From Aquipuribacter nitratireducens (GTDB lineage: Bacteria; Actinomycetota; Actinomycetes; Actinomycetales; JBBAYJ01), in the NCBI RefSeq assembly GCF_037860835.1, contig NZ_JBBEOG010000002.1, forward strand, positions 310,001 through 374,000: a DNA stretch of 64,000 nucleotides. Reading direction: 5' to 3'. The notes below the pieces were generated by a model. It made no database searches. It was not told the origin of the DNA and saw nothing but the letters and a program-made list of their open reading frames with translations. A program made the position numbers and the translations under genes. Shown one piece after another: positions 25,656 to 30,038 of this stretch (the stretch's first letter is position 1; every line of letters starts with the position of its first letter).

Positions 25656-25678
25656 GAGGTGGTTGTCGCGACCACCTC
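25656..25678. repeat. Inverted repeat in divergent intergenic region
   Basis: Arms GAGGTGGT (25656-25663) and ACCACCTC (25671-25678) with a 7-bp centre, between the SRPBCC gene and the M23 peptidase gene. It could be an operator; no regulator is identified. The rest of the gap (to 25797) holds an untranslated leader for the M23 gene with no recognised riboswitch. Confidence 0.4.
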
Positions 25679-25797
25679 TTGAGGTCAAGTATCGTCGTTA
25701 CCGATCCGAGACACAGTGGGTCCCCTTCCCGCACCCCTGGACTGCGTCCCGCACTCCACCGAACTGCCAGTACCCCCTGCCGTTAGGACCGAAACAC

Positions 25798-26862
25798 GTG
25801 CTGTCCCGCCCCTCCCGCCCCGTCCTCGCTGCCCTGACGGCCCTCGCGGTCCTCGGCGCGCCCGCGACCGCGGTCCTCGCGGCTCCCGCGCACGCCACCG
25901 TCACCGAGTCGCGCGAGGAGGTCGAGGCGGCGAAGGAGGAGGTCGCACAGCTCGGCCGGGAGGTCGAGGCGGCGTCCGCCGAGTACACCGAGGTCGAGAA
26001 GCGCCTCGAGGAGCAGCGGGCGCGGGTCGAGTCCGCACAGGCGAACGTCGAGGAGCAGTCCGCCCGCATCGCGGACATGGAGGACCAGCTCGTCGTCCTC
26101 GCCGTCGAGACGTACAAGCGGGGCGGTATCGACCCCAAGCTCGAGCTCCTCGCGACCGGTGACCTCAGCATCAACGAGTCCACCGACACCCTCGGGGTGG
26201 TCGCGGGTCGCAAGAGCGCGTCCCTCGGGTCCCTCCGCGACGCCCAGCTGGAGCTGCGGCGCCTGCGCCACACCGCGCAGCAGGAGCTCTCCGAGGTCGA
26301 GGCTCTCGAGGCGGACCTCGCCGAGCGGCGGGCCGCGATCGAGGCCAAGCTCGAGGGGGCGAAGGACGCACTCGCGGTCGCCGAGCGCGAGCACCAGGAG
26401 CGGGTCGCCGCCGCCGAGGCGCGCGCGGCCGACCAGGCCTCGCGCAGCGGCCGCGCCGCGATCACCACCGACCTCACGAGCGGGGGGCGCTTCGCGGTCC
26501 CCACCCCCGGACCGATGACGTCCCCGTTCGGCTACCGGGTCCACCCGGTGTACGGCGACCGCCGCCTCCACAAGGGCATGGACATCGGTGCGTCGTGCGG
26601 CACCCCGGTCGTCGCCGCGGAGAGCGGTGTCGTGCAGTCGGCCAGCTGGAACGGCAGCTACGGCAACATCGTCGTGGTCGACCACGGCGGCGGTCTCAGC
26701 ACCGCCTACGCGCACCTGCAGGGTGCGGCGAAGTCCGGCGGGAGCGTCGCCAAGGGCGAGGTGATCGGCTGGGTCGGGTCGACCGGCCTGTCGACCGGCT
26801 GCCACCTGCACTTCGAGGTCCGCGAGGGCGGCACCCAGGTCGACCCGATGGGCTACCTCTGA
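25798..26862 (+). CDS. Secreted M23 (LytM) peptidase with coiled coil
   Basis: A 354-residue exported murein hydrolase. A signal peptide (about 1-33, cleavage after AHA) is followed by a long charged coiled coil (about 36-215) similar to PcsB/EnvC-type regulators, then a LytM domain (about 240-350) with the zinc ligands in HKGMDIG and HLHFEVREGG. The catalytic domain appears intact. GTG 25798 follows AGGACC. Its coiled-coil region is clearly paralogous to that of the NlpC/P60 protein at 28759-29931 (AVETYKRGGIDPKLELL versus AVEAFKRGGVDPRLALL), so the pair probably act in the same division or wall-remodelling process. Confidence 0.9.
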   Translation: MLSRPSRPVLAALTALAVLGAPATAVLAAPAHATVTESREEVEAAKEEVAQLGREVEAASAEYTEVEKRLEEQRARVESAQANVEEQSARIADMEDQLVVLAVETYKRGGIDPKLELLATGDLSINESTDTLGVVAGRKSASLGSLRDAQLELRRLRHTAQQELSEVEALEADLAERRAAIEAKLEGAKDALAVAEREHQERVAAAEARAADQASRSGRAAITTDLTSGGRFAVPTPGPMTSPFGYRVHPVYGDRRLHKGMDIGASCGTPVVAAESGVVQSASWNGSYGNIVVVDHGGGLSTAYAHLQGAAKSGGSVAKGEVIGWVGSTGLSTGCHLHFEVREGGTQVDPMGYL

Positions 26863-26904
26863 CACGCCGCGGTCGACGGCGGACCGGGCGGCGAACCTGA
26901 TTCT

Positions 26905-27546
26905 TCACCGGGGTGCCGCGCCGCCCTCGCTGCGGCGACGGCGCAGCCGCACGACGACGAACCACACGACCAGGAGGGCGAGCGCGGCGACGACGACGGT
27001 CTGCAGCACCTCCGCGTACGGCGCCACGGCCTGCCAGTTCTCGCCGAGCAGGTACCCGGCGCACACGAACACGCTGTTCCAGAGCGCGCTGCCGGCGGTC
27101 GTGAGCAGCGTGAAGCGCCACAGCGGCATCGCCTCCGCACCCGCCGGGACGCTGATGGCGCTGCGGACGACCGGGAGCATCCGACCGAAGAACACGGCGG
27201 CCTCGCCGTGACGGCGGAACCACCGCTCGGCCGTGTCGACGTCGCGCGCGTCGACGAGCGGGATGCGTGCGGCGACGGCACGGACGCGGCGCGCCCCTAC
27301 CCAGCGGCCGAGGCCGTAGAGGACGAGCGCGCCGACGAGCGAGCCGAGCGTCGTCCACGCCACCGCGCCGGCGACGGTGAAGGTGCCCTGGCTCGCCGTG
27401 AAGCCGGCGAGCGGGAGCACGACCTCGCTGGGGATCGGCGGGAAGAGGTTCTCCAGGGCGACGACGACCCCGGCGCCGGGGCCGCCGAGGGCCTCCATCA
27501 CCCCGACGGCCCAGGCGGCCACCCCCGTGAGCTCGGGCTGCTGCAC
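26905..27546 (-). CDS. DedA family membrane protein
   Basis: A 213-residue VTT/SNARE-associated-type membrane protein of the DedA family, proposed undecaprenyl-phosphate or phospholipid flippases. The re-entrant segment ENLFPPIPSEVVLPLAG (about 31-47) and the second signature FFGRMLPVVRSAISVPAG (about 119-136) are present, with four or five hydrophobic helices and an Arg-rich cytoplasmic C-terminus. GTG 27546 is fixed by a -10 exactly 6 nt upstream. It is convergent with the M23 peptidase gene. Confidence 0.88.
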   Translation of the reverse strand: MQQPELTGVAAWAVGVMEALGGPGAGVVVALENLFPPIPSEVVLPLAGFTASQGTFTVAGAVAWTTLGSLVGALVLYGLGRWVGARRVRAVAARIPLVDARDVDTAERWFRRHGEAAVFFGRMLPVVRSAISVPAGAEAMPLWRFTLLTTAGSALWNSVFVCAGYLLGENWQAVAPYAEVLQTVVVAALALLVVWFVVVRLRRRRSEGGAAPR

Positions 27547-27552
27547 GCCCGG

Positions 27553-27558
27553 ACCGTA
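27553..27558 (-). promoter_or_regulatory. -10 element of leaderless dedA-like gene
   Basis: Minus-strand TACGGT with 6 nt to GTG 27546. The remaining divergent gap up to 27726 shows no other clear feature. Confidence 0.55.
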
Positions 27559-27726
27559 GCGGCGGCCCGTCCTCGAGGCCCGTGGTGGCGTGCCCCGAGG
27601 GCGCCGGGCCGACCGGGTGCTGAGATCGTTCGCGCGACCGAGGTGTACGCGAGGCCGGTCTCGGGCATGGTGTCCTCGGACCCATGCCTCCCCGCGCACC
27701 CCGCAGCCCCCGCAGGAGCCCTGACT

Positions 27727-28194
27727 GTGACCCTCCCCGGTGACGAGGGAACCGGAGACAGCGCCCGGCCGACGACGGTCGTGGAGCAGCTGTCACTGCC
27801 GCCGCGCGCGTCGTCGGCCCGGGAGGCGCGCCGCTGGGTCGTGAGGCAGCTCGAGGTGTGGTCGCTGGAACCGCTGTGCGAGCAGGTCGAGCTCCTCACC
27901 ACGGAGGTCGTGACGAACTCGCTCCTGCACGCCGGCACCCCGATGCTCGTCGAGGTCGTCCGTGAGGGGGCGGGTGTCCGCGTCAGCGTCACCGACGGGT
28001 CGAGCGTCGTCCCCACGCGGCGCCGCTACAGCCCGAACGCGTCGACCGGACGCGGCATGACCCTGCTCTCCGGCCTCGCCGACGACTACGGCTGGCACAC
28101 GACGCCCGGGGGGAAGGTGACGTGGTTCCGGGTGGAGCGGGTGCGGGACGCGTGGGGCGACGTCCGCTTCGACGACGTCATGGGCGGCCCGTGA
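27727..28194 (+). CDS. ATP-binding anti-sigma-type regulator (HATPase_c_2)
   Basis: A 155-residue GHKL-fold protein of the RsbW/SpoIIAB type. The N box is in LLTTEVVTNSLLHAG (about 58-72), the G1 box in VSVTDGS and the G2 region in STGRGMTLLSGLADDYG. Such proteins are serine kinases for anti-anti-sigma partners or simple ATP-binding regulators. GTG 27727 has AGGAG 8 nt upstream; an upstream in-frame ATG at 27667 lacks one. It overlaps the following gene by 4 nt. A link to the SpoIIE-type phosphatase at 15.9 kb is conceivable but untested. Confidence 0.8.
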   Translation: MTLPGDEGTGDSARPTTVVEQLSLPPRASSAREARRWVVRQLEVWSLEPLCEQVELLTTEVVTNSLLHAGTPMLVEVVREGAGVRVSVTDGSSVVPTRRRYSPNASTGRGMTLLSGLADDYGWHTTPGGKVTWFRVERVRDAWGDVRFDDVMGGP

Positions 28195-28733
28195 CCGGGG
28201 AGGAGCGGGCGCCCCAGGAGGAGCGCGGGTCCCCGCTCGGGCGGTACGAGCCCCACGACGACGCCACGACCGACGGCGCGACGGTCCACGTGGTCCTGCG
28301 CGGCCTGCCGGTGCAGGTGTGGCTCGCGAGCCGGGAGCACCACGACGACCTCATGCGCGAGTACCGGCTGCTGGCTCTCGCCGGCGACCTCGAGGCGCAC
28401 CACGCGCCGGCCCGGCTCGTCGAGCTCGTCGAGATCCTCGGTCAGCGGTACGCGGCCGCCGCCTCCCGGCGGGACGAGGAGCTCGAGGCCGCGCTCGCCG
28501 CCGGTCTCGCGGTCATCGACCAGGAGTCGGACGTCACGCCGGCCGCCGTCGGGGCGGTGCGGGAGCTCCGGCGGCTCATGGCGGAGTCGGACCGGTTCTG
28601 CGAGGAGGCGCAGCTGCTCACGCTGCCCCGCCCGCCCGTCGTGAGGGACTTCGGGGAGTGGTTCCTCGACGAGTTCGAGCGGCAGCTCGAGGGGCACGCC
28701 CCCACGCCGTGGGACGGTCCCCTCACGCCGTAG
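28191..28733 (+). CDS. Unrecognised helical protein coupled to anti-sigma ATPase
   Basis: A 180-residue soluble protein, mostly helical, with an acidic N-terminus. A strand VHVVLRGLPVQVWLASREHH precedes a helical bundle (RLVELVEILGQRYAAAASRRDEEL) and ends DFGEWFLDEFERQLEG. No family was recognised. GTG overlaps the stop of the GHKL ATPase, so the two are translationally coupled; it is a plausible partner or target of that protein. Not a STAS or sigma factor by sequence. Confidence 0.6.
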   Translation: MTGEERAPQEERGSPLGRYEPHDDATTDGATVHVVLRGLPVQVWLASREHHDDLMREYRLLALAGDLEAHHAPARLVELVEILGQRYAAAASRRDEELEAALAAGLAVIDQESDVTPAAVGAVRELRRLMAESDRFCEEAQLLTLPRPPVVRDFGEWFLDEFERQLEGHAPTPWDGPLTP

Positions 28734-28734
28734 C

Positions 28735-28760
28735 GACCCGCCGTGGCGACCCGGCGGGTC
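28735..28760. terminator. Bidirectional terminator between convergent genes
   Basis: Perfect 9-bp stem (GACCCGCCG / CGGCGGGTC) with an 8-nt loop, sitting exactly between the stops of the convergent genes ending at 28733 and 28759. Confidence 0.6.
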
Positions 28761-29931
28761 AGTGGCGGGTGCCGCCCGCGTACGGCATGTACCTCATCGA
28801 CTGGATCTTCACGACGTCCCCGGACGACGGCGCGGCGACGAGCTCGCCCCCGCCGATGTAGATGCCGACGTGGCTGATGGGGGAGTAGAAGTACACGAGG
28901 TCGCCGGGGCGCAGCTGGTCCCGCGACACCTTCGCGCCCGAGGAGTACTGCATGCGCGAGGAGTGGGGGAGCGAGACCCCGACCTGCGCCCACGCGCGCG
29001 ACGTGAGCCCGGAGCAGTCGTAGGAGCTCGGCCCGCCGGCACCCCACTGGTACGGCTTGCCCATCTGCGAGCACGCGAAGGCGATGACCGTCGCGGTCCG
29101 GTTGTCGGGCGCCGTGACGCTCCGGCCGCCGCAGCTGACGGTGGTCCCGCCGCTCACGACCACCTCGGTGCCGCCGGAACCCCCGGAGTCCCCGGAGTCC
29201 CCGGAGCCACCGGACCCGCCCGAGCCGCCCGATTCGCCGGAGCCGCCGGAGTCGCTCGACGCAGCCGCCTCCCGCGAGCGGCTCGCGGCCTCGGCCGCGG
29301 CGCGTCGCTGCTCGGCCGCGCGGATCGCGGCCTGCCGTGCGGCCTCGCGGGCGGCGGCAGCGGCCTCGGCGCGCTCGAGGTCGTCCTCGGCGGCGGCGAG
29401 CTGGGTCTCGATGTCCTGCTTCGTGGCGGCGAGGTCGGCCTCCATCGCCTCGACGTCCGCGAGCGCACGCTGCTCCTCGCGCTGGAGCTCGAGCAGCTCG
29501 GTCTGGGCCTGACGGAGGCGCGAGAGGCTCGCGGAGCTGCGCTCGCCGAGGAGCGCGATCGTGCCGGAACCGTGGGAGAAGTCGCTGCCGCCGCGGAGGA
29601 GCAGCGCGAGGCGGGGGTCCACGCCGCCCCGCTTGAAGGCCTCGACCGCGAAGGCGACGAGCTCGTCGTTCATGTCGCCGATGCGGACCTGCTGGTCGCT
29701 CACCTGCGCCGCGGCCGCCTCGGCGCGCGTGCGCTGCGCCGCGGCCTCCTCGCGCATCTCGTTGTAGTCCTCGGTGAGGACCGCGACCTGGCGGCCGAGC
29801 TCCTCCACTCGCTGCTCCGCCTCGGCGACGTCGCTCGCGCCGGCAGGAGCGGCGAGGAGCCCGAAGGAGAGGGTGACCGCGGCCGTGGCGGCGAGCACGC
29901 GCACGGCGGAGGGCAGGTGGGGAAGGCGCAC
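28759..29931 (-). CDS. Secreted NlpC/P60 peptidase with coiled coil
   Basis: A 390-residue exported endopeptidase. A signal peptide (about 1-32, ending AAPAGA) is followed by a coiled coil (about 33-220), an unusually regular Ser/Gly linker (about 224-254), and an NlpC/P60 domain (about 275-390) with the catalytic Cys in YDCSGLTSRAW and His in SHVGIYIGGG. Its coil is paralogous to that of the M23 protein at 25798-26862, while the catalytic domain differs. RipA-type enzymes of this plan cleave peptidoglycan stem peptides during division. GTG 29931 is chosen from the signal peptide; an ATG at about 29970 would add 13 polar residues. Confidence 0.9.
   Translation of the reverse strand: MRLPHLPSAVRVLAATAAVTLSFGLLAAPAGASDVAEAEQRVEELGRQVAVLTEDYNEMREEAAAQRTRAEAAAAQVSDQQVRIGDMNDELVAFAVEAFKRGGVDPRLALLLRGGSDFSHGSGTIALLGERSSASLSRLRQAQTELLELQREEQRALADVEAMEADLAATKQDIETQLAAAEDDLERAEAAAAAREAARQAAIRAAEQRRAAAEAASRSREAAASSDSGGSGESGGSGGSGGSGDSGDSGGSGGTEVVVSGGTTVSCGGRSVTAPDNRTATVIAFACSQMGKPYQWGAGGPSSYDCSGLTSRAWAQVGVSLPHSSRMQYSSGAKVSRDQLRPGDLVYFYSPISHVGIYIGGGELVAAPSSGDVVKIQSMRYMPYAGGTRH
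29158..29262 (-). repeat. Ser/Gly linker repeats in NlpC/P60 gene
   Basis: Imperfect 9-bp units encoding GGS, ESG and DSG triplets link the coiled coil to the catalytic domain. Likely to vary in length between strains. Confidence 0.7.
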
Positions 29932-29986
29932 GGGAGCGGGTCCTGTCGTTCCGGGGTCGCGGTACGGCATACCGAGGGGACGTCGC

Positions 29987-29992
29987 AAGGTA
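29987..29992 (-). promoter_or_regulatory. Possible -10 of NlpC/P60 gene
   Basis: Minus-strand TACCTT, giving a leader of about 50 nt to GTG 29931. No clear -35. Confidence 0.35.
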
Positions 29993-30038
29993 ACAGAACG
30001 GTCTCGGTGATCGCGACGACGCCCGGGGGTGGCGCGCC

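Follow-up and report, generated by a model that had tools for sequence, protein, structure and literature searches.

A RipC-type coil on two cell wall hydrolases of Aquipuribacter nitratireducens, an NlpC/P60 peptidase and a genus-specific M23 peptidase

Introduction

Can one coil serve two enzymes that cut different bonds, and does it keep all its functions when the enzyme is changed? This question is raised by a locus of Aquipuribacter nitratireducens, where genes for a secreted M23 peptidase and a secreted NlpC/P60 peptidase lie about 2 kb apart on opposite strands and share an N-terminal coiled-coil domain. The window analysed here is a stretch of 64,000 bp (positions 310,001 to 374,000 of contig NZ_JBBEOG010000002.1), and all positions refer to it unless a locus is named. 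Coil-controlled hydrolases with differing catalytic domains are known across bacteria, namely PcsB, CwlO and RipC, with EnvC as an adaptor (available text of PMC10694151). According to the same text, Tyr111 and Met112 at the coil tip of Mycobacterium tuberculosis (Mtb) RipC bind FtsX, and Asn48, Arg52, Glu55 and Glu59 are its plug residues. In Cg1735, Glu69 and Asn72 of helix 1 plug the NlpC active site (available text of PMC9897464).

Results

The preliminary description of this locus had taken its limits exactly from the start codons of the two genes (Table 1), and all four sequence strings that it quoted were present. Both products comprised a signal peptide (judged by eye), a two-helix coil with a lip and a C-terminal hydrolase domain, assigned by Pfam to Peptidase_M23 (E = 3e-31) and NLPC_P60 (E = 1.6e-24), respectively. 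Catalytic motifs were intact in both: the zinc ligands HxxxD (in the HxGxD form, HKGMD) and HxH (HLH) in the M23 protein, and the active-site Cys and His (DCSGL and SHVGIY) in the NlpC protein. BLASTP comparison of the two proteins gave 77 identical residues over 184 (42%, E = 5e-37), restricted to the coil and the last part of the signal peptide; the catalytic domains did not align beyond a chance piece of 4 residues. These results bore out the description of the pair as paralogous coils joined to unrelated catalytic domains. A search of the whole 3.83-Mb genome with the coil found only these two copies, the third match (E = 0.07) being in a spurious reading frame. The similarity of the two coils thus exceeds that of generic coiled coils.

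Unrelated folds of the shared region had been named as the result that would refute a common module. AlphaFold predicted a long helix, a lip with a short helix and a second long helix for both coils: residues 33–100, 106–112 and 118–227 of the NlpC protein (mean predicted local distance difference test score, pLDDT, 81), and 35–107, 113–119 and 135–227 of the M23 protein (coil mostly >80, lip 53–63). The M23 domain was mostly below 50 in the model, because the alignment contained no M23 rows. By structural alignment the NlpC model matched Cg1735 with Z = 20.7 (280 residues, 3.9 Å) and RipC with Z = 13.3 (274 residues, 7.3 Å). In a Foldseek search the M23 model ranked EnvC, EnvC and PcsB first to third and RipC fifth. 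Unrelated folds were thus not seen, and the predictions support one coil common to both proteins; its assignment to a named family depends chiefly on sequence and on the NlpC protein.

To see how the coil is distributed, genomes were searched with an alignment of the two coils. Each of the three genomes of the family, which all belong to one genus, had two or three copies. At a threshold of E = 1e-6, matches were present in 12 of 149 genomes from the order and in 163 of 394 from the class. Part of the matches outside the genus (56 stretches, L020–L075, including one mis-chosen) were classified with our own domain models. Among the 66 coil proteins found there by coil-driven searches, 64 carried NlpC/P60 and none carried M23; one had another C-terminus (L029) and one was ended by the contig end (L030). 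The three genomes of the genus, namely that of the window, G002 and G001, held four coil-M23 proteins (window, L016, L017 and L018) and three coil-NlpC proteins (window, L016 and G001), the NlpC gene of G001 being seemingly split between L019 and L018. An additional 80 loci, picked by NlpC-domain patterns and therefore uninformative on M23 partners, were used only for residue tallies, alignments and the tree. The nearest named loci, in a named collection that did not contain the genus of the window, were from Kineosporia.

In the coil tree the seven coils of the genus formed one clade (support 100/99), within which the four M23 coils were a clade of their own (99/94) and the NlpC coil of G001 stood at the base; grouping of the three genus NlpC coils as a clade was not rejected (approximately unbiased test, p-AU = 0.10). 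Given that 64 of 66 proteins outside the genus carried NlpC/P60 and none M23, and that the M23 coils grouped together, the M23 protein is the derived form and arose by a domain swap specific to the genus. The swapped paralogues of the preliminary description, for which no direction had been stated, are thus true coil paralogues in which the ancestral enzyme domain is NlpC/P60 and M23 came later. Most simply, the ancestor of the genus carried a duplicated coil, on one copy of which M23 replaced NlpC/P60 a single time. In the M23-domain tree, the M23 domains of the pair fell together with L180 and with L013, another M23 protein of this genome (98/99); as for the four genus M23 domains, their monophyly was neither established nor rejected (p-AU = 0.43), and the tree did not identify a donor.

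The pair was also kept in relatives, as a check of synteny had been proposed to ask. G002 has the gene order of the window, namely M23, HATPase, 200-aa protein, NlpC and FAD reductase. In G001 the two genes were adjacent, the M23 gene starting about 50 bp past the NlpC stop, head to tail, which is the spacing that a tandem duplication would leave. A second coil-M23 copy of G001 lay on another contig (L017, 12089–13066), indicating that the M23 version was duplicated again.

To see which parts of the coil were retained after the swap, residues were tallied in 109 coils (105 NlpC and 4 M23), after 7 duplicates had been dropped and 2 coils of other or unknown C-terminus excluded. The tip was kept. 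An aromatic residue at the position of RipC Tyr111 was present in all 109 coils (4/4 M23, 3/3 genus NlpC and 102/102 others), and the Gly after it in 4/4, 3/3 and 97/102, respectively; in the pair these residues are Phe99 and Gly102 (NlpC) and Tyr106 and Gly109 (M23). Identity between the M23 and genus NlpC coils was highest at the tip and lip (0.56, against 0.37–0.51 elsewhere).

The plug residues were lost. RipC Glu59 aligned under Glu54 of the window NlpC protein by sequence, and an offset of 15 in the structural alignment (31 to 46), with no gap assumed, suggests that Glu54 and Asn57 correspond to Glu69 and Asn72 of Cg1735. Glu was found at the first position in 95 of 102 NlpC coils outside the genus and in all three inside it (98/105), and was replaced by Ala in all four M23 coils. 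Asn was found at the second in 77 of 102 and again in all three (80/105), and in none of the M23 coils, which had Thr, Glu, Ala and Arg. Five of the 13 columns that were at least 75% uniform in NlpC coils were lost in all M23 copies. Of the four of these tabulated in every genus NlpC copy (all but column 188), only Glu54 and Asn57 were kept by all three, column 49 being Val in 3/3 and column 59 Ala in 1/3. The strict motif E-x-[YF]-N occurred in 68 of 103 NlpC coils and in both coil-NlpC proteins of this genome, but in 0/4 genus M23 coils and 0/23 coils of M23 proteins of the FtsEX-operon type. The "one duplicated control module" of the preliminary description therefore held for the duplication of the coil and the retention of its docking tip, and failed for the autoinhibitory Glu and Asn: in the M23 copies the module is half kept.

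The NlpC proteins of the genus differed in their catalytic site as well. The usual third catalytic His was Ala in all three (window, G002 and G001), and Ala was found at this position in only 1 of 101 sequences outside the genus. Among 102 distinct sequences (L016 included), 14 departed from the search pattern here; on reading, 12 of these had His, one had Glu and one was truncated.

Possible partners were looked for in the genome. It encodes one FtsX (E = 6.5e-48 to Mtb FtsX). A further coil-NlpC protein lies on contig C16. The window pair, this protein and an M23 protein encoded with FtsX (see Discussion) make at least four coil hydrolases sharing two known activator systems. In the order, FtsX adjoined the M23 gene in 22 of the 30 best-match M23 loci. 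By sequence, the NlpC protein matched Mtb RipC, known from FtsEX-RipC structures, over residues 16–378 (E = 1.1e-22). The NCBIfam RipC model covered residues 11–383 with 103 bits against a cut-off of 425, so the protein was not filed as RipC itself. The RipA model gave 79.6 of 625 bits with its best stretch in the catalytic domain, and the protein did not fall to the RipA clade by sequence. This RipC-type match and the helix-lip-helix fold agree with the earlier view of the coil as similar to those of FtsX partners. The M23 protein gave no match to RipC by sequence at E = 0.01, PF24568 (CC_PcsB) had no match in the own genome, and a profile search of the Protein Data Bank (PDB) with an alignment of seven coil sequences returned chance coils only.

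Upstream of both genes a GTTACC hexamer was found within blocks conserved in G002 (Table 1). The hexamer occurred three times over both strands of the window (expectation from base composition, 6.7 per strand), and two of these sites lay 101 and 58 bp upstream of the M23 and NlpC start codons, in gene orientation. The 14-kb stretch of G002 held only two GTTACC sites, upstream of the same two genes. MtrA is encoded (381.9 bits against a cut-off of 300). Compared with the Streptomyces MtrA consensus, as given in the available text of PMC5650626, the NlpC site had one mismatch and the M23 site two; sites fitting the consensus as well as the NlpC site numbered 10 in the window and 1–7 in five random sequences. 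A shared regulator of both genes, perhaps MtrA-like, is possible.

The preliminary description had also included the DedA gene between the two peptidase genes. Since G002 keeps the pair with the same interval free of DedA, this gene is incidental; LysR- and EamA-like genes (named by eye) take its place there. The HATPase_c_2 gene followed by the 203-aa gene (27754–28733, + strand) is kept next to NlpC in G002.

Two side observations concern the coil outside the genus. Tandem same-strand pairs of coil-NlpC/P60 genes were found at L035, L036, L037, L038, L069 and L074, in several genomes (6–10 Mb) of one genus of the class (f37/g83). The protein at L029 (5005–6351, G098) has a related coil and a C-terminal domain without Pfam match, lytic transglycosylase-like by eye.

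Table 1. Features of the coil-hydrolase locus in the window
Feature	Position	Strand	Details	Basis
M23 peptidase with N-terminal RipC-type coil	25798–26862	+	354 aa; GTG start at 25798	Pfam, BLASTP
M23 coil helix 1	25900–26118	+	residues 35–107	AlphaFold
M23 lost plug positions Ala61, Thr64	25978–25989	+	Glu, Asn in the NlpC copy	alignment, residue tally
M23 kept tip residues Tyr106, Gly109	26113–26124	+	Tyr106 corresponds to RipC Tyr111 by motif	PMC10694151
M23 lip between helices	26119–26199	+		AlphaFold
M23 coil helix 2	26200–26478	+	residues 135–227	AlphaFold
M23 catalytic domain	26566–26847	+	residues 257–350; HKGMD and HLH intact	Pfam
NlpC/P60 peptidase with N-terminal RipC-type coil	28759–29931	-	390 aa; GTG start at 29931	Pfam
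NlpC coil helix 1	29632–29835	-	residues 33–100	AlphaFold
NlpC plug residues Glu54, Asn57	29761–29772	-		alignments, residue tally
NlpC lip	29581–29631	-	residues 101–117	AlphaFold
NlpC coil helix 2	29251–29580	-	residues 118–227	AlphaFold
NlpC/P60 catalytic domain	28792–29061	-	residues 291–380	Pfam
Ala366 at the usual third catalytic His position	28834–28836	-		alignment with relatives
44-bp block upstream of M23	25673–25716	+	nearly identical in G002; GTTACC at 25697–25702	
25-bp block upstream of NlpC	29981–30005	-	conserved in G002; GTTACC at 29989–29994	
DedA/VTT-domain protein	26905–27699	-	between the pair, not part of it	Pfam VTT, E = 2.3e-21
HATPase_c_2 protein	~27.75–28.19 kb (from 27754)	+	between the pair	Pfam
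203-aa protein	28122–28733	+	between the pair; no Pfam match	

Discussion

We consider it rather probable that a RipC-like coil gene was duplicated, that NlpC/P60 was swapped for M23 in one copy, and that both products dock by the coil tip to a common septal activator. The gene of a secreted NlpC/P60 D,L-endopeptidase was duplicated in the ancestor of the genus, and the NlpC/P60 domain of one copy exchanged for an M23 D,D-endopeptidase domain, as the distribution and the coil tree show; the two bond specificities are assigned by analogy with the families. As in known relatives, the coil would have two jobs, namely docking to a membrane activator through its tip and plugging of the NlpC active site by helix 1. 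With tips of one type, both enzymes could be brought to a common septal activator, for which FtsX is the most probable candidate and SteB the next. Docking would free the NlpC copy from its plug, while the M23 copy would be positioned by docking and not plugged in the NlpC fashion. Two bonds of the stem peptide would then be cut at the same site during daughter-cell separation.

The NlpC protein resembles RipC (Rv2190c, the FtsEX partner of M. tuberculosis) in its signal peptide, helix-lip-helix coil, low-complexity linker and NlpC/P60 domain, and also in the plug Glu and the tip aromatic. It differs in a helix 1 that is 7 residues shorter from plug to tip, in Lys for Met112 and in Ala for the third catalytic His. 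With the SteAB-activated RipA/Cg1735 it has in common the coil-plugged architecture and, by the structural-alignment offset, the two plug residues, which are absent from the M23 protein; unlike there, the coil is unmatched by sequence and the linker of Cg1735 is much longer. The M23 protein resembles those encoded by ftsE-ftsX-M23-smpB operons of Actinomycetes in being a secreted coil-M23 protein with a similar tip (by eye), but the latter have a different, longer coil family and are encoded with ftsX, and BLASTP aligned the M23 domains only (55% over 137 aa). EnvC and PcsB, the top Foldseek matches of the M23 model, have FtsX-partner coils too, and EnvC also joins its coil to a LytM/M23 domain. 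The LytM domain of EnvC acts as an activator and is non-catalytic, and PcsB has a CHAP domain. Unlike in EnvC, the zinc site of the M23 protein is not degenerate; with its motifs intact, the protein is predicted to be an enzyme.

Several observations weigh against docking of both coils to FtsX, or against the tip-and-plug interpretation. The operon ftsE-ftsX-M23-smpB of this genome (L005, 820–3800) provides FtsX with a coil-M23 partner of its own, which is likely an FtsX client competing with the window pair, and SteB/MctB is encoded as well (E = 1.3e-41); for these two reasons the partner of the pair is ambiguous. In the Phe cluster of FtsX, F61 and F110 are kept, but Ile and Leu stand at the positions of F113 and F122 (read from the alignment), and at the tip the position of RipC Met112 is Lys, its aromatic neighbour being retained. 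The Foldseek matches of the M23 model named above all had E-values over 0.001, and its VIA Z scores to RipA coils (11.1–11.2) tied with those of unrelated helical proteins. The looser motif E-x-[YFHWA]-[NQDH] did not discriminate, matching 17 of 23 coils of the FtsEX-operon type and 2 of the 3 genus M23 proteins tested. Loss of the plug was one event on one branch, represented by four related sequences, so the residue counts are not independent trials.

The main rival is that the coils dock to SteB of SteAB, with the operon-encoded M23 protein as the partner of FtsX. Besides the presence of SteB and of that operon, Cg1735 speaks for it, a SteB-activated homologue of RipA that the NlpC model matched best in structure over its whole length. 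The sequence evidence points the other way: the RipC model covers nearly the whole NlpC protein whereas the best stretch of the RipA model is residues 279–380, only RipC was matched through the coil in the PDB search, and the coil-NlpC protein on C16 could equally be a SteB client. We regard docking to SteB as rather unlikely, and FtsX is favoured because the coil is RipC-like by sequence. It is less likely still that the coils are leftover scaffolds, serving two independent secreted hydrolases only as tether or spacer. Coiled coils diverge easily, the partner is putative, and most of helix 1 is poorly conserved between the M23 and genus NlpC coils (identity 0.37–0.39); yet conservation peaks at the tip and lip, with Tyr and Gly kept, and what was lost falls mainly on the two plug positions. 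Convergence of low-complexity coiled coils could be suggested by the Ala/Glu-rich composition of both coils and by generic coil matches in Pfam. It was already refuted by the BLASTP match, the uniqueness of the coil in the genome and the grouping in the coil tree, to which the conserved non-helical tip may be added, and a separate origin has next to no probability.

Beyond a duplicated coil docked by its tip, a wider proposal may be made, which we hold only tentatively. The tip would have been reused for a second, D,D-specific enzyme at the same divisome receptor and the plug discarded. In the same lineage the third catalytic residue of the original NlpC partner was lost, and cutting may thereby have moved from a plugged D,L-endopeptidase to a D,D-endopeptidase without a plug, with one promoter element controlling both.

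The observation is real and mostly explained by the known hydrolases of FtsEX and SteAB. Its new elements are that two enzymes of one genome share a coil, that the swap ran from NlpC/P60 to M23 and that the plug was lost selectively; no paper among those listed by literature searches dealt with an M23 protein bearing a RipC-type coil. Whether the coil of FtsEX and SteAB hydrolases is portable as a targeting module apart from its inhibitory role is a mechanistic question, and Glu54 and Asn57, as opposed to Phe99/Tyr106 and Gly102/Gly109, are the residues by which docking and inhibition could be separated. This lineage is a natural experiment on the coil, in which the tip was kept, the plug dropped and the enzyme changed.

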